The position numbers were made by a program, and so were the translations under genes. The notes below the pieces were generated by a model, which searched no databases, had not been told where the DNA came from, and saw only the letters and a list, made by a program, of their open reading frames with translations. A stretch of DNA of 47,735 nucleotides from an uncultured Alphaproteobacteria bacterium. Lineage in GTDB: Bacteria > Pseudomonadota > Alphaproteobacteria > Rhodobacterales > Rhodobacteraceae. Position 1 is the first letter of the stretch. Each line of letters opens with the position of its first letter. Location: positions 1 to 47,735 of the forward strand of contig CACIJG010000014.1 in NCBI GenBank assembly GCA_902586885.1. Direction: 5' to 3'. Below, in pieces: positions 5,574-19,840 of the stretch.

Positions 5574-6362
5574 TTATAGATTGTTTGAAACAAATCGCAT
5601 CATTTCGTCGACGGCAGATATAGATTTTGAACTCACTTCGTAAGCCCTTTGAGTCTCAATCATGTCAACTAACTCTTGAACTACATTTATGTTTGATGCT
5701 TCAAGAGAACCTTGAACTAACTTACCAAACCCCTCTCCAAAAGGATTTCCAATTGCTGGTGCACCAGATGCAGTTGTTTCCACAGTAAAATTCTCCCCTA
5801 TAGGTTGAAGTCCTGCCGGATTAGCAAAGTTTGCCAGAGTTAATTGGCCTACTTCCTGTGCTTCAGCTTCTCCAGCCAATTGGACGCTTACTAAGCCGTC
5901 TGCTGAAACGTTTATCTCCGTAACACCTTCTGGAATAGCAATTTCAGGTTGAAGCACATATCCACTAGGGGTTACTAAAGTTCCCTCAGCATTTCTTGAA
6001 AATGAACCATTTCTTGTAAAACCAACACGGCCGTCTGGCATAAGAATTTGGAAAAAACCACTACCATCTATTGCTAAGTCTAGAGCGTTATCAGTGTTGA
6101 TTAAACTTCCTTGAGTGTAAAGTTTTTGTGTGTTTACAATCCTTACTCCAGTACCCACTGCAAAAGCTGAACTTAAGTCAGTATCAGCAGAAGTTTGTTC
6201 GCCACTTGCTCTTTGAATTTGGTATAATAAAGACTCGAAATTAACTCGATCTTTTTTGAACCCAGTAGTATTTACGTTTGCTAGGTTGTTAGCAATCACT
6301 TGCATCTTTGTCTGTTGTGAGTTTAGGCCCGTTTTGGCCACGTGCATTGCGCTACTTGACAT
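5574..6362 (-). CDS. flgG: Distal rod protein FlgG
   Basis: FlgG polymerises into the distal rod that passes through the P and L rings. The 262-aa sequence has the N-terminal D0 motif (TKMQVIANNLANVNTTGFKK), the central DLAIDGSGFFQILMPDGRVG with FTRNGSF, and the C-terminal SNINVVQELVDMIETQRAYE. The last run is the FlgG-type version of the D0 helix, and length is exactly typical. A 56-base gap separates it from flgF upstream; no promoter pattern was seen there. Context between flgF and flgH supports the assignment. Confidence 0.96.
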   Translation of the reverse strand: MSSSAMHVAKTGLNSQQTKMQVIANNLANVNTTGFKKDRVNFESLLYQIQRASGEQTSADTDLSSAFAVGTGVRIVNTQKLYTQGSLINTDNALDLAIDGSGFFQILMPDGRVGFTRNGSFSRNAEGTLVTPSGYVLQPEIAIPEGVTEINVSADGLVSVQLAGEAEAQEVGQLTLANFANPAGLQPIGENFTVETTASGAPAIGNPFGEGFGKLVQGSLEASNINVVQELVDMIETQRAYEVSSKSISAVDEMMRFVSNNL

Positions 6363-6418
6363 CTTTACTCTCCTTGATGAATACTTATGTATTCATAGCA
6401 AGAGCTATGCCAAAATTA

Positions 6419-7206: not shown

Positions 7207-10200
7207 TTATCCTCTAATATTAATGATTGTTTGCGTTAAGGTGGTAGTCGTCTCAATAGCTTTTGCAGAAGCTTGGAAGTTTCGTTGTGCAGTAATGAGA
7301 TTCACTAGCTCTTCCGTGATATCAACGTTGGAACGTTCCAACGAACCTGAAAGAATATTTCCAAAACCTTCAGCTCCAGCTTCACCTACCTGCGCCGTAC
7401 CTGAAACCGCTGTTTCTACATAGGTTGCGTTACCAATCTGTTTAAGACCATTTTGGTTATTAAAGTTAGCCACAACAATTTTTCCAAGTGGATTGTTTTG
7501 ACCGTTCGTATAGTTAGCTCTGATAGTTCCCGAAGCATCAATTTCCAATCCGTCCAATCTACCAGAAGTAAATCCGTCTTGATTAACACTTAGAACAGAG
7601 AAAGGCTGGGCAAACTGTGTTGATGAACCAAAATCTATGTTAAGAGAGATAGAAAAACCTTCTTCCTGTTTCTCATAATGTACATCTTGTTTTGGATTTA
7701 CCAGTTTACCAGTCTTATCAAAGGTAAGCTCTCCCTCATCAATATATAGAGGATAGTAACCATCAACCATATTTTCAGGTGGAGCTTCCACTACTTTTCC
7801 TTCCGCGTCAACATAAAGTGCTACCCCATCCTTATTTGTCGCTTGAACAAGATTATAGATTTTTGGAACTGTACCAACACCAAGAGGAACATCATCTAGT
7901 CCAAGACGTGCTGCTCCCTTAACTTTGATGGTAGATGTGTCTCCAGCCGTTCCTGTAGTGAATTCAAAGCTGTTGGAAGAGGCATTAAATTTGGCAGTAA
8001 CACCGCCAACTGTCTCGCCTGTCACTGGATCCATAATTTGATTTATTTTCGACTGTAAAGCTTCAGCCAGCGTTGAACCAACATAAAATCCAGGTGGAAT
8101 AGTGATCACACCACTAATACCATTAACTGAAACGTTGAAAATATTTTCACCGTTAGTCGTAGAAAGTCTAAAAACTTCATTTAATGGCTCTGTAGCAGTT
8201 GCACCTATGGCCTTTGCTGACGTTGCTGATAGTCCCTTACCCGCAGTAAACTCTGCTTCAGTTTTTGTTGAGCCAACTCCAAGAAGGTTGTTGTCTCCCG
8301 AGAAGTAATCGGTGCTATCAACTACGGCTCCCGTAGCATCTAATGCATATCGACCGACTTGAATGTTAGACGCCTTTTGAGTTGAGGTAACTCCCAAAGC
8401 TCCCTGAGCTGCTATTTGTTCTCCTGTGGTTCCACTAGAAATCTTAAATGACTTTTTGTCACTATTATATTCAACTTCGATTCCATATCGTTTATCGTTT
8501 AATTGAATTTCTTCACCATCCGCTACGAAACTTTCCCCAGATAAAATCTCTCCACCTCTAATCAAGGTGCTTGGAGAGTCATCCTTAGAAACAAGGCCCA
8601 GATTGTTGGTATCTGTAGCTGTGCCTTTACCATAAATAGTGAAAGAGTTGAAATTACTGTCTGTTCCAGTACCAAGAACTGTTCTATCTACCGTAAACTG
8701 TAATCTCTGATTGATTTCGTCATAAGTAACCTTTACGGGTGGATTTAATTCGTCAACCCATTGTACTGTCTCATTATTTGCTTTGGAGTATGTTTGCAAA
8801 CCAAGCATCGCTTTTGTGCCTGTAGTGTTGTTTGTTTGATATGTGGCAGTAAAAGCGGAAAAAGCACCGGCGGCTGCATCGTTTCCTGGGTCAGTTTGTT
8901 TAGCGGTACCAGTTTCTCTTATAACTATTTTTTTACTTGCAAAGTTAACAGGCGCGTCTTCGTAAACATTTTGGGCACCCTCAAAAAATGCTTCAACATT
9001 TGTAGAAGGGTTATACATTACATTTAACTTATTCCCAGCAGTATTTTTGACATTGAAATCTGCGTCTGGAAAACCTAGACCGGTTGTATTTATTTGAACG
9101 TAGGCATTAGTACTATTTGACGCTGCGTCTGTATATTGAACACTGGAAATTGTGAATTCGCGACCATTTAAATAAGATGCCTGGGTATTCTCTGTGGCAT
9201 CAAAATCGCCACTTAATCTTATTTTCCCGTTAGCTTGAAAAATTGGATTATTAGAACTCACTCCTGTGAAATAAATTCTTAACGTATTTTCTGTAGTGGA
9301 ATACATTATCTTATTTTGGGCGGCGTTCGTAGCGTTGCCAGCACTATCATTTACATTAGCAGGTGTTGTGGCCACTTGTTGTTTGCCATCATACACGCTT
9401 AGATTAGGCTTATTATCAAAATAAGAGTAAACTAGGTGCTTAGTAGCAGTATCATCTGGAGTACCTGCGCTTGCTGGTGTTCCATAATCGTTTGACGTAT
9501 GAGTAAATGAAATTACGTCATTAGTTTCATATATCGTATCTATAGTTGTTCCAGCGGCTCTAGTAAATTGTAACTTCTCAATTCCAAGCGCAGCTTTTTG
9601 AGTAGTATTGGATGAAGCATAGGTATTCAGTGCTTCGTTTACACGGGCCTGAACGTGAGCAAGGAACTCATCTCTAGTAAAGTCAGGAGACGCTCCAGTA
9701 AGATTTATTCTGTTAGCTCCACCGACTTGTTGAGAGGTTACATAACTATCTGTTAGTAGATCGACAGTAATAGCCGCATCCAAAGATGAAGTTGAACCAT
9801 CAGCATTTAATTTTGATAAATCGATATTAATTTCATCGTCAACATTTCTAACAACTTGAATTTTTTTATCGTCTCCATATGCTTCGTTAATAGCACGTTC
9901 TACTTCTTTCGCTAATTGAGCCGCATTATATTTACCGGGACGGATATCAATATTTACCGGTTGGTCAGCACTATCAACATTAAGTGTAAGAAAGTTCTTA
10001 CCCCAATAAATATCACTATCGGTGAGCTTTCCTGCCTCCACTGTAGCGTTGTATAATAGTGGGTCTGTAACCACTTCAACTAGTTTGTCACCTTCTTCAC
10101 CAAAGTCAAAAGCCGTTAACTCACCCTGAATATTGGCTGCCGTTGATGGCACCTGAGTTTTTAAGTCATCTAATTTATATAGAGGTGATCCTTTTCCTTC

Positions 10201-11031
10201 CAGGAAGTAGTTGTCGTCTGGAACACTAGTTGTTTGAGCTCCAAATTTATCTATATAAATTTGATTTTTAGCATCATCCACAGCACTAACTAGATCAGGG
10301 GTGATGATGGTATCATTTATAACCAATCTTGTATCAAATTTATTAGTTGGGTCAGTAGCAGATGCTGTCTGTGTCTTTATGAAGTACATAGTAGCAATCG
10401 TCGGATTACCCAAATCGTCAAAGATTGTAATTGATGTTGAGTTTGTAAAGGTTTCAGAGTTATTCGGATCAAAAGTATATCCATCAGCAAATTGTGGTTG
10501 ATCCGGAACGACAGCTGCCGCAGCTGGAACGTTTACCCCAAGATCAATATTGGTTGTAGCTTTTGGATCACCAGAAGTAACTGGAAGTTGCAGTGGTATT
10601 GATGATATTAAGTCTTTAGCAGTAACAGAGCCGTCTTCATTAACAGGGTAAACTAATAGGTACTGACCAGCAGAATCAACAACGTATCTGTCATTATTCA
10701 CGTTAAGTGAACCGTTTCGAGTATAAACTGTCTGAGCTGATGTTAAAGATGGTTTAAGAGCAAAAAATCCCTGACCAGAAATAGCAAGGTCTAGAGCGTT
10801 CAATGATGAAGAGATGTTACCCTGTGTGAACTGCTGCTTAATTCCTTTTAGAATTGTACCAGAACCAATTGATGATGAAGAGTTTTGTAGAGGGGAGGTA
10901 GCAAAAATATCACCGAATTCTGCTCTACTCCTTTTAAACCCAGTTGTCCCAACGTTTGCAATGTTATTAGAGGTTGCTGATATATCAGATTGAGCCCCGT
11001 TTAGTCCTGTTAAAGCTGTATAGAATGACAT
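7207..11031 (-). CDS. flgE: Flagellar hook protein FlgE, giant form
   Basis: FlgE is the hook subunit. Both ends are canonical. The N-terminal D0 reads SFYTALTGLNGAQSDISATS, NNIANVGTTGFKRSRAEF, then ALDLAISGQGFF near residue 80-90. The C-terminus has GSLERSNVDITEELVNLITA and ends in ETTTTLTQTIINIRG. The length, 1274 aa, is about three times the 400-aa enterobacterial form. The extra mass lies between roughly residues 200 and 1130. Two inserted stretches, near residues 345-400 and 965-1035, look alike in style: a beta strand, a Pro-Gly-Xaa-Tyr turn, an amphipathic helix with AI(N) or KI(N), then beta strands. This resembles the flagellin insertion motif. The gene is open throughout, with a GGAG ribosome site just upstream. 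Confidence 0.95.
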   Translation of the reverse strand: MSFYTALTGLNGAQSDISATSNNIANVGTTGFKRSRAEFGDIFATSPLQNSSSSIGSGTILKGIKQQFTQGNISSSLNALDLAISGQGFFALKPSLTSAQTVYTRNGSLNVNNDRYVVDSAGQYLLVYPVNEDGSVTAKDLISSIPLQLPVTSGDPKATTNIDLGVNVPAAAAVVPDQPQFADGYTFDPNNSETFTNSTSITIFDDLGNPTIATMYFIKTQTASATDPTNKFDTRLVINDTIITPDLVSAVDDAKNQIYIDKFGAQTTSVPDDNYFLEGKGSPLYKLDDLKTQVPSTAANIQGELTAFDFGEEGDKLVEVVTDPLLYNATVEAGKLTDSDIYWGKNFLTLNVDSADQPVNIDIRPGKYNAAQLAKEVERAINEAYGDDKKIQVVRNVDDEINIDLSKLNADGSTSSLDAAITVDLLTDSYVTSQQVGGANRINLTGASPDFTRDEFLAHVQARVNEALNTYASSNTTQKAALGIEKLQFTRAAGTTIDTIYETNDVISFTHTSNDYGTPASAGTPDDTATKHLVYSYFDNKPNLSVYDGKQQVATTPANVNDSAGNATNAAQNKIMYSTTENTLRIYFTGVSSNNPIFQANGKIRLSGDFDATENTQASYLNGREFTISSVQYTDAASNSTNAYVQINTTGLGFPDADFNVKNTAGNKLNVMYNPSTNVEAFFEGAQNVYEDAPVNFASKKIVIRETGTAKQTDPGNDAAAGAFSAFTATYQTNNTTGTKAMLGLQTYSKANNETVQWVDELNPPVKVTYDEINQRLQFTVDRTVLGTGTDSNFNSFTIYGKGTATDTNNLGLVSKDDSPSTLIRGGEILSGESFVADGEEIQLNDKRYGIEVEYNSDKKSFKISSGTTGEQIAAQGALGVTSTQKASNIQVGRYALDATGAVVDSTDYFSGDNNLLGVGSTKTEAEFTAGKGLSATSAKAIGATATEPLNEVFRLSTTNGENIFNVSVNGISGVITIPPGFYVGSTLAEALQSKINQIMDPVTGETVGGVTAKFNASSNSFEFTTGTAGDTSTIKVKGAARLGLDDVPLGVGTVPKIYNLVQATNKDGVALYVDAEGKVVEAPPENMVDGYYPLYIDEGELTFDKTGKLVNPKQDVHYEKQEEGFSISLNIDFGSSTQFAQPFSVLSVNQDGFTSGRLDGLEIDASGTIRANYTNGQNNPLGKIVVANFNNQNGLKQIGNATYVETAVSGTAQVGEAGAEGFGNILSGSLERSNVDITEELVNLITAQRNFQASAKAIETTTTLTQTIINIRG

Positions 11032-11067
11032 TTTTTACTCCGTTTTACAAAAAACTTAAATCGTTAA

Positions 11068-11757
11068 TTAATTTCTGAACTTGATGACATCTGCTGCTGC
11101 CATTTCGCCGTAATCTTTTACATCAATAGTCACACCTTGATTATTTTTGCCTACTGTAGCAGCCATTACTTCCGAGAAGACTGATGGGGTGAGTCCTTGT
11201 GACCCTTTACCTGTGTTTATAAAAGCTTCAACTCTTAAAGGCATGTTCTTTGCTTTTATATCTTCTGGAATATCAAGCCATTCAAAACCTACTAATCCAC
11301 CTGGCTGTGCTCCTAAATCTATAGAATGAAGATGTTCACCTGACTCGTCAAAGAAAGACACTGAAGTCTCACTTGAAGCAGAAGGAAGGTCTATTATGCC
11401 GTGTATTTCATTATTTTTGTTTGGTCTGGCAATATTTCCTGGGACTAGTACAGAATTTCCTAATAAATCCGAAGCTGTTGCAATTCTAAACTCATTGAGT
11501 TTATCTGAAATTCCGTTAAGGCTTTGTCCCATTTCAGTAATACCAGTCACAGTTGAGAATTGAGCCATTTGTGCTATAAACTCTCCATTCTCCATTGGAG
11601 CAAATGGATCCTGATTTTGAAGTTGTGTAGTCATTAATCTTAGAAAATCCTCTTGACCAAGACTGCTTTTTCGTTTTGTAGCATCGGCTTCTGGAGTTTT
11701 AGCTCCTATTTTTTCAAGAATATTGTTAAGTGCTTGGTTGTTTTCTATACTAGACAT
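11068..11757 (-). CDS. flgD: Hook cap/scaffold protein FlgD
   Basis: FlgD caps the growing hook and is discarded at completion. The 229-aa protein carries the diagnostic N-terminal motif LGQEDFLRLMTTQLQNQDPF followed by PMENGEFIAQMAQFSTVTGI. A beta-rich C-terminal region follows (Tudor/FnIII-like in the family), with a GGLVGFEWLDIPED segment. It sits directly between flgC (16-base gap) and flgE (36-base gap). The length is normal, so the hook cap has not grown along with the giant hook protein next to it. Confidence 0.94.
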   Translation of the reverse strand: MSSIENNQALNNILEKIGAKTPEADATKRKSSLGQEDFLRLMTTQLQNQDPFAPMENGEFIAQMAQFSTVTGITEMGQSLNGISDKLNEFRIATASDLLGNSVLVPGNIARPNKNNEIHGIIDLPSASSETSVSFFDESGEHLHSIDLGAQPGGLVGFEWLDIPEDIKAKNMPLRVEAFINTGKGSQGLTPSVFSEVMAATVGKNNQGVTIDVKDYGEMAAADVIKFRN

Positions 11758-11773
11758 AATCGTACTCCACTAA

Positions 11774-12190
11774 TTACTTTCCTAAATTTATGGTTTTCAC
11801 CATAAGAGCTCTTAAAGTCGAAATAACTTCAATATTGTTTTGATATTGTCGACTTGCTTCAAGCATTTCGACCATTTCTTCCTCTACGTTGACCGCTGCA
11901 TTAAAAACATAACCATCCTCATCAGCTTTCGGGTGGTCAGGCATGTATACTCTTTCAGGCTCTCTATTTAATTCTTGAACATTAATTGCATCCACAGTGG
12001 CCAGACCATTATTTTGCAATTTATTTGAATAAATAGTTTTGAAGATAGGTTTTAAAGGCCTGTAAGCTCCCTCGCTAGTAGTTGAGATATTATTTGAATT
12101 AGCCAGGTTACTTGCTACTGTATTTAATCTTATCATTTGAGCAGCCATAGCTCTTCCTGATATATCAAAAATATTTTTCACCGAAGCCAT
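11774..12190 (-). CDS. flgC: Proximal rod protein FlgC
   Basis: FlgC forms part of the proximal rod. The 138-aa product has the N-terminal D0 helix (SGRAMAAQMIRLNTVASNLA NS region), the YMPDHPKADEDGYVF segment typical of FlgC (usually P-DHP-AD--GYV), and the C-terminal VEEMVEMLEASRQYQNNIEV. Its ATG overlaps the flgB stop by one base (TAATG), indicating coupled translation. Length and all landmarks match the family. Confidence 0.95.
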   Translation of the reverse strand: MASVKNIFDISGRAMAAQMIRLNTVASNLANSNNISTTSEGAYRPLKPIFKTIYSNKLQNNGLATVDAINVQELNREPERVYMPDHPKADEDGYVFNAAVNVEEEMVEMLEASRQYQNNIEVISTLRALMVKTINLGK

Positions 12191-12576
12191 TATTCACCCC
12201 TTATCGCGGACATAAGTCCATTAATTTTGTTAGATAGGAATTGTAGGGTAGTTTGGTATCTCACCACATTTTCAGAAAATTCCATTTGTTCAACTGCTAG
12301 CTCAACGGTATTGCCATCTAATGAAGGATTTAATGGTTCTCTAAAGAGCATGTCATTTGGTCTCACCTTAGATAACAGAGCAAAGTGCTTTTCGTGATTT
12401 ACAGAAATATCACCTATCTTCTCTCTCTTTTTTATTTCAGTTTCAAAATCTATGTCCCGGGCTTTAAAATGAGGTGTAGCCGCATTGGCAATATTAGAAG
12501 CAAGGATTTTGTTTCTTTTACCCCTTAGATTTAAAGCGTTTGAGTAGACACTTAGATGATTTTCTATGGTTTTCAT
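12190..12576 (-). CDS. flgB: Proximal rod protein FlgB
   Basis: FlgB is the first rod subunit, contacting the MS ring/FliE. The 128-aa protein has a D0-type N-terminus (RNKILASNIANAATPHFKAR, DIDFETEI) and a C-terminal helix (VELAVEQMEFSENVVRYQTT, then LQFLSNKINGLMSAIRGE). It is the first gene of the minus-strand rod/hook operon and sits about 46 bases after the expected start site of the sigma-54-type promoter at 12633-12648. Length is typical. Confidence 0.94.
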   Translation of the reverse strand: MKTIENHLSVYSNALNLRGKRNKILASNIANAATPHFKARDIDFETEIKKREKIGDISVNHEKHFALLSKVRPNDMLFREPLNPSLDGNTVELAVEQMEFSENVVRYQTTLQFLSNKINGLMSAIRGE

Positions 12577-12620: not shown

Positions 12621-12636
12621 TGGTGTGAAAATTGCA
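12621..12636 (+). promoter_or_regulatory. Opposing sigma-54-type promoter sharing the same -12 GC
   Basis: The plus strand reads TGGTGTGAAAATTGCA, with GG at 12622-12623 and GC at 12634-12635, again spaced by ten bases. Its GC is the same base pair step used by the minus-strand site, because TTGCAA is palindromic. The -24 box is weaker (TGGTGT instead of TGGCAC). A start near 12647 would give a leader of about 25 bases before the ATG at 12672. This site is less certain than the minus-strand one. Confidence 0.5.
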
Positions 12637-12648
12637 AATAGAATGCCA
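12633..12648 (-). promoter_or_regulatory. Sigma-54-type promoter of the flgB operon
   Basis: On the minus strand the site reads TGGCATTCTATTTGCA. The invariant GG and GC are separated by ten bases, as required for RpoN. Only one base of the TGGCAC and none of the TTGC core deviates. The start site would fall near 12622, leaving a leader of about 46 bases before flgB. Sigma-54 control of rod/hook operons is well known in polar flagella. Transcription would need an activator of the FlrC/FleR kind, which is not in this window. Confidence 0.8.
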
Positions 12649-12671
12649 AGTTGACTAACAATGAGAAAAAA

Positions 12672-13361
12672 ATGAATACTTCAAATGAAAACAGTGAAAA
12701 TTTTAAATTAAGTGCCCCTGTCCCCCTGGACCCAATTATAATAAGAGCAAGAGACGAAATATTGGAACAATATTCTGATAAATCTCTAGAGGAACAAATT
12801 ACTTTTTATAAAGCTATTATAGAGGGCGAGAAAGACAGTGTTACTCGATTAAGCGCAATGGCTGCAAGAGTTTATGTTCTTAGAAAAAGATTAGCGTTGT
12901 TAGGAGGAAACTCACCGGAACAGAATTTTGATGAAGAATCTAATATTGATCTGGGTGTTGATTTAGAGTCCGTTGCATCTGATTCTGTAGATGCTAAGGA
13001 ACCAGAGTTGATAGGAGATGAAGGGTCTTGGATGAGGCTCAAAATTTTAGACTCTAGTGAAGTTAATGGAGTAAGGTTTCCAGCTGGAGTGGTAATCGAT
13101 GTAAAACGTGAAGATGGTGAGAAGTTAATTGAGGCAAAAAAAGCGGAATTTGTCTCCACTGAGGAAAGTCGACTATTCAAATCCCAGGAGGGATTAGACG
13201 ATGGCCAGGCTGAAGAGGACACCAATTTAAAAGCTTCTCCTGATGAGCAGAGTGCTAAAGAAGAGGTTTCAGAAGAGGCGGAAGCTTCTCCTGATGAGCA
13301 GAGTGCTAAAGAAGAGGTTTCAGAAGAGGCGGAAGAGAAAAAGGATGATGGTAAAATTTAA
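12672..13361 (+). CDS. Acidic hypothetical protein with a duplicated C-terminal repeat
   Basis: Not recognised as a named family. The 229-aa product has a helical, moderately conserved-looking N-terminal region (DPIIIRARDEILEQYSDKSL, then ALMAARVYVLRKRL-like helices around residues 50-75). A short beta-rich unit follows around residues 120-160 (GVRFPAGVVIDVKREDGEKL IEAKKAEFV). It resembles the small 'G-x-x-x-PAG ... A-x-F/V' units seen in some phage head-tail-type proteins; that likeness is weak. The C-terminus is very acidic, with two perfect 17-residue repeats. I chose the ATG at 12672, preceded by GAG at a good distance; a TTG at 12651 would lie at the predicted transcript start. It is divergent from the flgB operon, so a flagellar role is an inference from position only. 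Confidence 0.65.
   Translation: MNTSNENSENFKLSAPVPLDPIIIRARDEILEQYSDKSLEEQITFYKAIIEGEKDSVTRLSAMAARVYVLRKRLALLGGNSPEQNFDEESNIDLGVDLESVASDSVDAKEPELIGDEGSWMRLKILDSSEVNGVRFPAGVVIDVKREDGEKLIEAKKAEFVSTEESRLFKSQEGLDDGQAEEDTNLKASPDEQSAKEEVSEEAEASPDEQSAKEEVSEEAEEKKDDGKI
13233..13334 (+). repeat. Two perfect 51-base tandem copies inside the acidic protein gene
   Basis: Copies at 13233-13283 and 13284-13334 are identical and in frame. Each encodes 17 residues starting ASPDEQSAKEEV. Identity at silent positions shows a recent duplication, or length variation in the culture or population. The unit length keeps the frame, so copy number could change without killing the protein. Confidence 0.95.
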
Positions 13362-16980: not shown

Positions 16981-17514
16981 TTAAGCAACTGTCCTAGCCT
17001 GCCGAAGTAGGTAACTAAGTGTATCTTTGTCAATTTCTAACAGAACTTCATAGGTGTCAGTACCGGTTGGATTTATTCTAACAGTTCTTGCTCCTCTTAT
17101 AGTTCCTGAAACGATGCCTCTGAAAGTATCGTTTTGAACCATTAGGTCAATCACAGTGGTATTACCTTCTACTTTTAAACCATGTATCTGTTCTGCCAAA
17201 TCCCTCATTGCTGCCATTCTTGCAGATCTGATTGCCATAAGTCTTTTTTGATTGGCTGATCTACCAGGCTGAGAGGATACAACAGCATAACCTACAGCAT
17301 TTATCGTAGGCACATTATCAACTGATGCATCCAACACCTCGTTTATAGCTGCTAAATGAGCTGCATCTTCACCGTTCCTGTTACTTAAAACATTTAAGGC
17401 AGGTTTAGAAGGATCATCATCAGTATTTCTAAGAAAACTTGACTGACAACCAGATACCATTAGAGCTATCCCAAAGATAGAAATATGTCTTTTCATTTTA
17501 TTACTTAAATTCAT
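16981..17514 (-). CDS. flgP: Flagellar outer-membrane lipoprotein FlgP (LPP20 family)
   Basis: FlgP forms an outer-membrane-associated disc or ring in Vibrio and Campylobacter. I start at the ATG at 17514, which has GAGGG seven bases upstream; an ORF start at 17610 lies upstream of the promoter. The 177-aa product then begins with a lipoprotein signal and lipobox MVSGC, Cys at residue 23. The core reads INAVGYAVVSSQPGRSANQK, RLMAIRSARMAAMRDLAEQI and VSGTIRGARTVRINPTGTDT, the usual FlgP/LPP20 pattern. First gene of its operon, directly behind a sigma-54-type promoter. Confidence 0.87.
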   Translation of the reverse strand: MNLSNKMKRHISIFGIALMVSGCQSSFLRNTDDDPSKPALNVLSNRNGEDAAHLAAINEVLDASVDNVPTINAVGYAVVSSQPGRSANQKRLMAIRSARMAAMRDLAEQIHGLKVEGNTTVIDLMVQNDTFRGIVSGTIRGARTVRINPTGTDTYEVLLEIDKDTLSYLLRQARTVA

Positions 17515-17551
17515 TTTAAAACCCTCGTCTTTAAAAACGTAACGTAGTCTT

Positions 17552-17567
17552 TGCATGATTTGTGCCA
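17552..17567 (-). promoter_or_regulatory. Sigma-54-type promoter of the flgP-flgT-flgA-flgM operon
   Basis: The minus strand reads TGGCACAAATCATGCA. The -24 half matches TGGCAC fully and GG-N10-GC spacing is kept; the -12 half is ATGC rather than TTGC. The expected start site is near 17541, about 27 bases before the flgP ATG at 17514, with the GAGGG ribosome site in the leader. Confidence 0.75.
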
Positions 17568-17604
17568 GATAATTCAGTTTTGTAGAAATAACGCGATAAT
17601 GCTT

Positions 17605-17620
17605 TGGCATGATCTTTGCT
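17605..17620 (+). promoter_or_regulatory. Sigma-54-type promoter of the flhA-flhF-flhG-fliA operon
   Basis: The plus strand reads TGGCATGATCTTTGCT, with GG and GC ten bases apart and a full TTGC -12 core. The start site would be near 17631, about 110 bases before flhA. It stands back to back with the flgP promoter, with about 40 bases between them, so one activator bound here could serve both. Confidence 0.75.
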
Positions 17621-17740
17621 TCTTTTTGACTGAATAAAGCTATTGGCGTTAATTCTGGAAAGTTATATGTGGAAAAATTAGCAGTAAGTTATGATTAATG
17701 CCAAGTTGTGACTAAATTTTGACAAAGAAAGAGCAGAGTC

Positions 17741-19840
17741 ATGGAATTGACAGCGCAAAAAACAGGGGTTCTCGGAAATATTACCGACATTATGAAATCA
17801 GGTATTCTTCCATTAGGAATAATAATCTTGGTCGCAATGATGGTTTTACCTTTACCAGTATTCTTATTGGATATCTTTTTTGTTTCAAACATTTTGGTTT
17901 CTTTGGTCATCTTAATGGTAGCAATGCATACCTTTAGACCGTTAGACTTTTCTAGCTTTCCAAATTTACTTTTAATTGCTACTGTTTTACGTTTGGCTCT
18001 CAACGTTGCTTCCACAAGAATTGTTCTAGGTCAGGGTCACAATGGCAGCGATGCGGCTGGACAGATAATTGAAGCTTTTGGTAATTTTATTGTTTCTGGT
18101 AACTATGCTGTTGGTATATTTGTATTTATAATTCTTGTTATCATAAACTTAGTGGTGATTACCAAAGGTGCGGGTAGGGTGTCAGAGGTCTCTGCAAGAT
18201 TTACACTAGATGCGATGCCAGGGAAACAGATGGCCATAGATGCAGACCTTAACGCAGGCGTCTTGTCAGCTGAGGAAGCTACAGCTCGCAGAGAGGATAT
18301 CGCTAAGGAAGCAGATTTTTATGGGGCTATGGATGGTGCCTCTAAATTCGTTAAAGGGGATGCGGTAGCATCTATCTTAATTCTGGCAATTAATATCATA
18401 GGGGGGTTGATTATTGGCATAAGTCAATACGATCTGCCAGTGGCTAAAGCTGCAGAGACTTATGTTCTTTTATCAATAGGAGATGGATTAGTCGCACAAA
18501 TACCCTCACTGCTTTTGGCAATATCTACTGCCATAATAGTAACTAGAGTCTCTTCAAAACAAGACATGGCTTCACATATAGGAGAGCAATTAAGTATCTC
18601 TAGGGCCTGGATTCCAGTCTCAGCCGTACTTTTATTGATAGGGTTTGTTCCAGGAATGCCAAACCTTTTATTTATTGTGTCAGCGGCGGTTGCTGCAGGA
18701 GCAGGCTTTTTATCACGATCAATAGAAAGAAAAAGGGAGGTAAGTGATCAAGATTTAATTCAGAGTGATATAGAAGAAGAGGAAAGCTCAACAGATCAAT
18801 TGAAGCTTGAAGAGGTTACAGATTACTCACCAATTTCAGTCCAGCTAGGTTATGGATTGGTTGAAATGGTTGATGACGAGTCTGGGGGTCCATTAGTAGA
18901 AAGAATTACTGGAATAAGGCGACAAGTATCCAAAGCATTAGGTTTTATAGTACCCGCTGTCAGGATTAGAGATGATTTAACACTGAGCTCAAACCAGTAT
19001 AGAATAAGAGTTGGCCAAACAATTGTTGGAGATGATGTTATTTATCCTGACAGAAAACTTGCTATCCCAAGTGATGATACCAATATAAAAATAGATGGCA
19101 TAGAAGTTAAAGACCCTTCTTTTGGAATGAATGCTACATGGATTTTATCTTCTCAGCAAAATGAGGCTGAGGAAAAGGGTTATGTGGTTGTAGCTCCTGA
19201 ATCAGTTTTAGCTACGCACTTAAGTCAAATATTTTATAAACATGCAGGAAAGCTTATTGGACAGGATGATGTTCAAACTTTGCTGGATAATTTATCTCAG
19301 ACGGCACCTAGCTTGGTCGAATCTTTAGTCCCAAAACTTGTACCGCTTCACAATTTAACAGGAGTGTTAAGGGAATTGTTGTCTGAACGAGTACCAATTA
19401 GTGATCTTAGGATAATACTTGAATCTTTGGCAGGGTTAGTGGGTAAGAATCTTAGTTTAATTGATACTGCTGAAGCCGTTCGACCTTCATTATCGGGACT
19501 GCTGATTCAACAAGTAGCGCCTTTAAATCAACCTCTTCCTGTTATTACTTTTAACTCAGAGTTAGAGCACATGTTAATTAAAATGGCTAAACAAAGTGGT
19601 GAGGAGGGTTTGGTTTTAGACAATGACCTTGCTCAAAAATTGATTACAAATATTTCTGATCTGAATCAGAAGCTTACGTCAGAGGGGAAAACCGCTATTT
19701 TGGTAGTCTCTCCTAATATTCGAAGACAAATCTCTGCAATTATTAGACAACATATTGAGGATTTAATTGTTTTATCCTTTACGGAGCTGCCTGATAGCAG
19801 AAAAGTTGATGTGGTGGCAACTATTGATGGTCAATCATAA
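17741..19840 (+). CDS. flhA: Flagellar type III export gate protein FlhA
   Basis: FlhA is the large inner-membrane export gate that binds substrates and chaperones. The 699-aa product has about eight membrane segments in its N-terminal half (first at about residues 18-45) and the FHIPEP-type signature region around LLIATVLRLALNVASTRIVL. The loop GAGRVSEVSARFTLDAMPGK then QMAIDADLNAG follows, also typical. The C-terminal cytoplasmic half starts after the linker near residue 345 and includes YVVVAPESVLATHLSQI and LRELLSERVPISDLRIILES. Length is normal. The ATG at 17741 follows AGAGCAG. It heads an operon with flhF, flhG and fliA. Confidence 0.97.
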   Translation: MELTAQKTGVLGNITDIMKSGILPLGIIILVAMMVLPLPVFLLDIFFVSNILVSLVILMVAMHTFRPLDFSSFPNLLLIATVLRLALNVASTRIVLGQGHNGSDAAGQIIEAFGNFIVSGNYAVGIFVFIILVIINLVVITKGAGRVSEVSARFTLDAMPGKQMAIDADLNAGVLSAEEATARREDIAKEADFYGAMDGASKFVKGDAVASILILAINIIGGLIIGISQYDLPVAKAAETYVLLSIGDGLVAQIPSLLLAISTAIIVTRVSSKQDMASHIGEQLSISRAWIPVSAVLLLIGFVPGMPNLLFIVSAAVAAGAGFLSRSIERKREVSDQDLIQSDIEEEESSTDQLKLEEVTDYSPISVQLGYGLVEMVDDESGGPLVERITGIRRQVSKALGFIVPAVRIRDDLTLSSNQYRIRVGQTIVGDDVIYPDRKLAIPSDDTNIKIDGIEVKDPSFGMNATWILSSQQNEAEEKGYVVVAPESVLATHLSQIFYKHAGKLIGQDDVQTLLDNLSQTAPSLVESLVPKLVPLHNLTGVLRELLSERVPISDLRIILESLAGLVGKNLSLIDTAEAVRPSLSGLLIQQVAPLNQPLPVITFNSELEHMLIKMAKQSGEEGLVLDNDLAQKLITNISDLNQKLTSEGKTAILVVSPNIRRQISAIIRQHIEDLIVLSFTELPDSRKVDVVATIDGQS

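Follow-up and report, generated by a model that had tools for sequence, protein, structure and literature searches.

A 28-base block between flgB, the first gene of a rod/hook run, and a divergently oriented gene for an acidic protein is likely to be a bidirectional sigma-54 promoter that co-expresses the two genes at a set ratio from a single palindromic -12 element. Both halves of the block are kept in distant relatives, which makes a genuine sigma-54 promoter working in both directions probable. The window (the whole stretch of DNA analysed, 47,735 nucleotides) comes from an uncultured alphaproteobacterium of the Rhodobacteraceae. An earlier note had described the block as two opposed sigma-54 promoters on one -12 step, a proposal that is now well supported by conservation (13 of 13 loci in the genus and 9 of 10 homologues in the class). 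The plus strand reads TGGTGTGAAAATTGCAAATAGAATGCCA, of the form TGG-N8-TTGCAA-N8-CCA, and each of the three dinucleotides from which the proposal had been built is present where stated: GG at 12622-12623, GC at 12634-12635, CC at 12646-12647. The features concerned are:

12621..12648, both strands: predicted bidirectional sigma-54 promoter block, from motif count and conservation
12622..12635, plus strand: plus half, TGGTGTG AAAA TTGCA; -24 GG 12622-12623, -12 GC 12634-12635
12634..12647, minus strand: minus half, the predicted flgB promoter, TGGCATT CTAT TTGCA; -24 GG 12647-12646, -12 GC 12635-12634
12632..12637: palindromic -12 element TTGCAA, common to both halves and invariant over the 6 genera scored
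12647, plus strand: predicted +1 of the divergent gene, from geometry; coincides with the minus -24 GG
12622, minus strand: predicted +1 of the flgB operon, from geometry; coincides with the plus -24 GG
12617-12589, minus strand: weak sigma-70-like site preceding flgB, 9 of 12
12651-12680, plus strand: weak sigma-70-like site, 9 of 12, overlapping the start codon of the plus gene
12190..12576, minus strand: flgB, rod protein, first in the rod/hook run (Flg_bb_rod; FlgB model TIGR01396 above cut-off)
11774..12190, minus strand: flgC-like rod gene (Flg_bb_rod and Flg_bbr_C)
12672..13361, plus strand: divergent gene for an acidic protein of 229 aa, ATG at 12672 (weak DUF7210 match below cut-off)

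The sigma-54 consensus is GG-N10-GC in a TGGCAC...TTGCW context. The minus half agrees with it at 11 of 14 positions and the plus half at 10 of 14, so that both read as sigma-54 promoters and the -24 box of the plus half is the weaker, as had been remarked before. In the plus half, the core of which is kept in 6 genera, the -12 element matches, and the mismatches comprise three in the -24 TGGTGTG and one in the preceding base. The palindromic TTGCAA provides one core element usable on both strands. The strict form TGG-N8-TTGCAA-N8-CCA, that is, GG/GC/CC plus the surrounding bases favoured by sigma-54, occurs once in the window against 0.01 expected, and the half-site TGGY-N7-TTGCAA three times against 0.27 expected, two of the three lying within the block. 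The loose form GG-N10-GC-N10-CC occurs three times in the window against 2.19 expected from shuffles, with no excess over chance, and the case therefore had to rest on conservation. A sigma-70 scan near the start gave the two weak sites listed above, against 0.8 expected.

Within the genus the block is constant. A FlgB search of 61 genomes found orthologues in 13 of the 22 genus genomes, that of the window included, and at all 13 flgB loci the whole block stands 70-71 bases upstream of the flgB start; the nine genus genomes without the block at flgB are also without a FlgB match. The weak FlgB matches (L015-L028) were left out of the block evidence; three of them (L015, L016 and L024) fit the loose pattern only. 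A search of the 22 genomes with the strict pattern found it in 14, at 17 distinct sites, with none for the reversed control. Thirteen of the 17 sites are the flgB block, and one genome (G021) has only an unrelated site. The four other sites (G000 C4, G014 twice and G021), in frames of 256-532 aa, were rejected as coding coincidences. Loss of the plus-strand GG with retention of the minus GG, which the earlier note had named as evidence against two promoters, is seen at none of the 13 genus loci; among the class homologues described below it is absent from nine of ten and present in one (G140).

Beyond the genus, the block follows the acidic gene. A four-sequence profile of the acidic protein, run on a second collection of genomes, gave 22 loci in genomes titled Alphaproteobacteria or Rickettsiales, all with the block upstream, at least 14 of these loci being from repeat genomes counted in other samples. 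A six-sequence profile run on 385 class genomes gave 11 matches, of which 10 are credible; a match in G185 was dropped because it lies in a 2727-aa frame. A match in G134 from another search, by eye a penicillin-binding protein frame, was dropped as unrelated. In nine of the ten credible homologues (G000, G044, G178, G186, G249, G277, G339, G358 and G417), representing four families (f1, f9, f19 and f109), the whole block lies between the acidic gene and flgB, and all nine have a FlgB frame opposite the acidic gene, recognized by model in G000, G044, G178 and G186 and by eye in the other five. The tenth and weakest homologue, in G140, keeps the flgB half alone; at about 1390-1420 of its locus (L071) stands what amounts to a natural half-promoter, with the flgB half GCAATTTACATGCCA, the plus GG missing and the weak divergent homologue still there. 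The alignment is gapless over 6 genera (G339 and G140 being displayed but unscored), with the consensus TGGTNTGRAWWTTGCAANNNNNATGCCAA. Columns belonging to the plus half alone have a mean identity of 0.83, those belonging to the minus half alone 0.73, and the central columns 1.00. The flanks, unalignable across the class, have 0.34-0.35 in the same 6 genera, with a maximum of 0.45 among 60 flank windows. In G339 and L064 an A replaces the otherwise conserved G (of TNTG) in the plus -24 box.

Mirror-image CC bases are largely confined to flgB promoters that have the divergent gene. From a FlgB search of 144 class genomes the best 30 loci were taken, of which 29 were usable (L197 was too short), and 13 of the 29 have a sigma-54-like site in the flgB direction at 11 or more of 14 positions, a cut-off that the plus half in the window, at 10 of 14, falls short of. 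The mirror CC is present at all four of these 13 sites that have the divergent gene and missing from that of G140. It is also missing from seven of the eight without a divergent gene, the exception being G048, where no TTGC reads back; none of these eight genomes has a match to the six-sequence acidic profile. Block or mirror CC in 9 of 10 cases with the acidic gene vs 1 of 8 without gives a Fisher p of 0.003, kinship being ignored. All 15 other GG-N10-GC sites in the window at 10 or more of 14 positions lack the mirror CC. Of 21 intergenic sigma-54 sites mapped in Escherichia coli K-12 and taken from rows of Table 1 of PMC4591121, 20 lack it too; the exception, glmY, has an upstream neighbour that is not divergent. 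For this control, 20 of the 22 rows ending in GCA, together with zraS, were read from the 50 rows of the table; ygfT, cedA and 27 rows with other endings were left out.

By convention the C of the GC is placed at -12, which puts the predicted starts at 12647 (plus) and 12622 (minus), pointing apart with 24 bp between them. The transcripts had been expected to overlap by about 25 bases at their 5' ends; this is wrong, since the promoters face away from each other and the predicted starts diverge across that gap. Each start sits on the opposite -24 box, so that only one orientation could be bound at once, and from this geometry it follows that polymerase would be held in one orientation at a time. 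The start of the plus gene is better placed at ATG 12672 than at TTG 12651, since among the 13 genus loci read there are 8 in which the longest frame begins at the corresponding ATG. For the plus transcript a leader of 20-25 nt is predicted in eight of eight loci, and so short and near-constant a leader is what would be expected of a fixed plus start. The predicted minus leader varies from 20 to 95 nt among the loci compared, the G186 start being uncertain. An AGG lies closely 5' of the plus-gene ATG in six of seven loci, the exception being the window itself.

Downstream of flgB and the flgC-like gene, the minus-strand genes at 7207..11757 are presumably flgD (11068-11757) and flgE (7207-11031), names that we gave by eye; the latter frame has 1274 aa and, if it does encode the hook protein FlgE, is unusually long. 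On the other side, Pfam, NCBIfam and PHROGs assign no function to the acidic protein. The structure predicted for it is of poor quality (mean pLDDT 69.6, pTM 0.42), the model having three helices and then a small strand-rich domain, and when the model was compared with the PDB no entry matched at E 0.001 or lower (best 0.015); for these two reasons we claim no fold. The acidic tail of the protein, which varies in length among species, includes two tandem near-identical copies (13230-13337) encoding EASPDEQSAKEEVSEEAE. To the right of the acidic gene, on the minus strand, lie genes for a DUF2802 protein, a 101-aa protein without a Pfam match and FlgM, and farther right, on the same strand, those for a FlgA-like protein, a 141-aa protein without a match, and FlgT_N and LPP20 proteins. 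The window holds further sigma-54-like sites. At 17551-17621 is an ordinary back-to-back pair with -24 boxes about 40 bp apart: the plus site, TTGGCATGATCTTTGC from 17604, is 5' of a gene at 17741 (by eye flhA), and the minus site, CTGGCACAAATCATGC from 17568, falls inside the frame listed for the LPP20 lipoprotein gene, though 5' of an internal ATG of that gene at 17514. A good minus-strand site, TTGGCATAGCTCTTGC, is found at 6396-6413, upstream of the minus-strand gene 5574-6362 of the rod gene run.

The sigma factor and candidate activators occur in the clade. Of 29 genomes searched for rpoN, 21 have the gene, namely 15 of the 22 from the genus and 6 of the 7 from outside it; no rpoN was found in the window's own assembly (76% complete), in the block-bearing genus genomes G004, G009 and G019, or in G178 (92% complete). 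The window's genome encodes NtrC- and NtrX-like activators, an activator with HTH_8 beside flagellar-looking genes, by eye FlrA/FleQ-like, and an activator cut by a contig end (L121:3-563), 5' of fliE- and fliF-like frames. Relatives of this last protein are present in 13 of 15 genomes searched (L121:3-563; L208-L219). All 13 loci end 44-49 residues past GNVREL, and in a scan of seven of these proteins neither HTH_8 nor Response_reg was matched at E 0.01, although HTH_8 was matched in two other activators scanned. A FliE-like frame (by eye) follows the gene in six of six loci checked, and also in L121. We call these proteins FleT-like on domain make-up and genomic place, namely an AAA+ domain without receiver or HTH, encoded before fliE. 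In the available parts of the sources, FleT of Rhodobacter sphaeroides is an AAA+ protein without receiver and DNA-binding domains, the only such activator known (PMC7175178), which works with FleQ at class III promoters (PMC7175178, PMC11999139, PMC7277832). FleT alone does not activate and FleQ is required (PMC11999139), so that one should not take it for granted that the activator works from solution. The flgB operons of Vibrio cholerae and Pseudomonas aeruginosa are described as requiring sigma-54, with FlrBC or FleSR (PMC7064773, in the part available).

We envisage two full -24/-12 promoters inverted over TTGCAA, the one serving flgB and the rod/hook genes leftward and the other the acidic gene rightward. 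RpoN-polymerase would bind in either orientation, one at a time, and then wait, and a flagellar activator would open whichever closed complex was bound. The activators may be the FleT-like AAA+ protein, probably with a FleQ/FlrA-like protein; since the same activators would open either complex, the two genes would come on at the same time, at the rod/hook stage. The ratio would be set by how strong the -24 boxes are relative to each other, TGGCAT being better than TGGTNT, with flgB as the larger product. The sigma-54 closed complex is reported to be stable and to wait for its activator (PMC7175178, in the part available), so that the choice of orientation and the opening of DNA would be separate steps. 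We incline, with some reserve, to a wider view of the block as an old conserved promoter at which the closed complex takes up its orientation ahead of activation, and this orientation picks the gene that fires and thereby hard-wires the stoichiometry of the rod/hook genes and their partner.

The earlier note had suggested a one-or-other switch. On such a reading, conditions would favour one orientation, and expression of the rod/hook genes and of the acidic gene would be separated in time or between cells. This is possible, and the common -12 element, with each start on the opposite -24 box, does by geometry bar simultaneous occupancy. Moreover, in the available text on sigma-70 bidirectional promoters, activation one way can repress the other (PMC12825309), and mutations of RpoN sites in Yersinia raised expression of the opposite-strand gene in four of five D-site cases (PMC7657599, in the part available). 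Both halves here are, however, of the sigma-54 type, no regulator that would tip the choice of orientation came to notice, and the two genes have stayed neighbours in four families, as if they were needed jointly. In the former study (PMC12825309), the five promoters tested had too little basal activity to compete. Because one sigma factor, and probably one flagellar activator, would serve both halves, we hold co-expression at a set ratio to be more likely and a switch to be unlikely.

It is more doubtful still that the flgB promoter alone is real and that the mirror bases are kept for another reason, for instance as flgB start-site sequence or as the dyad operator of a regulator. The plus -24 box does overlap the predicted flgB start, and G140 lives without the plus half; against this, the spacing is exactly GG-N10-GC on both sides, the plus leader is nearly constant in length, and the mirror CC is missing from seven of eight flgB sigma-54 promoters where no divergent gene is present, as well as from 20 of the 21 sites read in E. 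coli. Chance resemblance we regard as very improbable. The loose pattern is as common as in shuffles, and the strict pattern with one more T is found somewhere in 56 of the 385 class genomes. Nevertheless, the strict form is found once in the window against 0.01 expected, the four other genus sites sit in long coding frames, and four families keep the block despite flanks that do not align. Of 26 background loci taken from the class pattern matches (L147-L172), 24 lie inside stop-to-stop frames of at least 100 aa, a test that is crude, since it also flags L173-L176, which are flgB blocks themselves.

The closest likeness to the bidirectional sigma-54 promoter proposed here is with the sigma-70 bidirectional promoters recently shown to be common, the polymerase of which opens DNA unaided (PMC12825309, in the part available). 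These too have a pseudo-symmetric core, a common opening element (the -10) and divergent starts, which are commonly 18 bp apart and also 10 and 23, and they do not bind two polymerases simultaneously. The block here differs in its -24/-12 boxes, which are those of sigma-54, a factor dependent on an ATP-driven activator, and in the 24 bp between its predicted starts; RpoN is absent from the main text of that paper. In E. coli, the divergent pairs hycA/hypA and zraP/zraS have a sigma-54 site facing each gene; by the coordinates printed in PMC4591121, 128 bp separate the motif centres of the first pair and 154 bp those of the second, unlike in the block. The divergent sgrR and sgrST are described as both dependent on RpoN and NtrC (PMC8743547, in the part available). 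We saw no GG-N10-GC site at 9 or more of 14 positions in the sgrR-sgrS interval of E. coli, so that the scan is uninformative on their mode of action. The flgB promoters of polar flagellates, acting with FlrC, FleR or FleQ/FleT, share the placing of sigma-54 before the rod/hook operon and membership of a FleQ/FlrA-led hierarchy, and no divergent partner on a common -12 element is reported for them in the available parts of PMC7064773 and PMC7277832. The fla2 system of R. sphaeroides also has compact divergent flagellar promoters, including that of flgB, but these are CtrA-activated and not sigma-54-dependent; fliL2/fliF2 uses one CtrA site, and flgB2/fliI2 has starts 47 bp apart and two CtrA sites (PMC6180460, in the part available). 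In the passages available from a text search of the open literature, no sigma-54 pair with a common -12 element is described. We lean towards regarding a sigma-54 counterpart of the known sigma-70 two-way promoters, built on one palindromic -12, as a new architecture. If true, it would be a sharper test system than the sigma-70 promoters, with its conservation over four families as a natural experiment and G140 as a natural half-promoter, and it would tie an uncharacterized acidic protein to the rod/hook genes.
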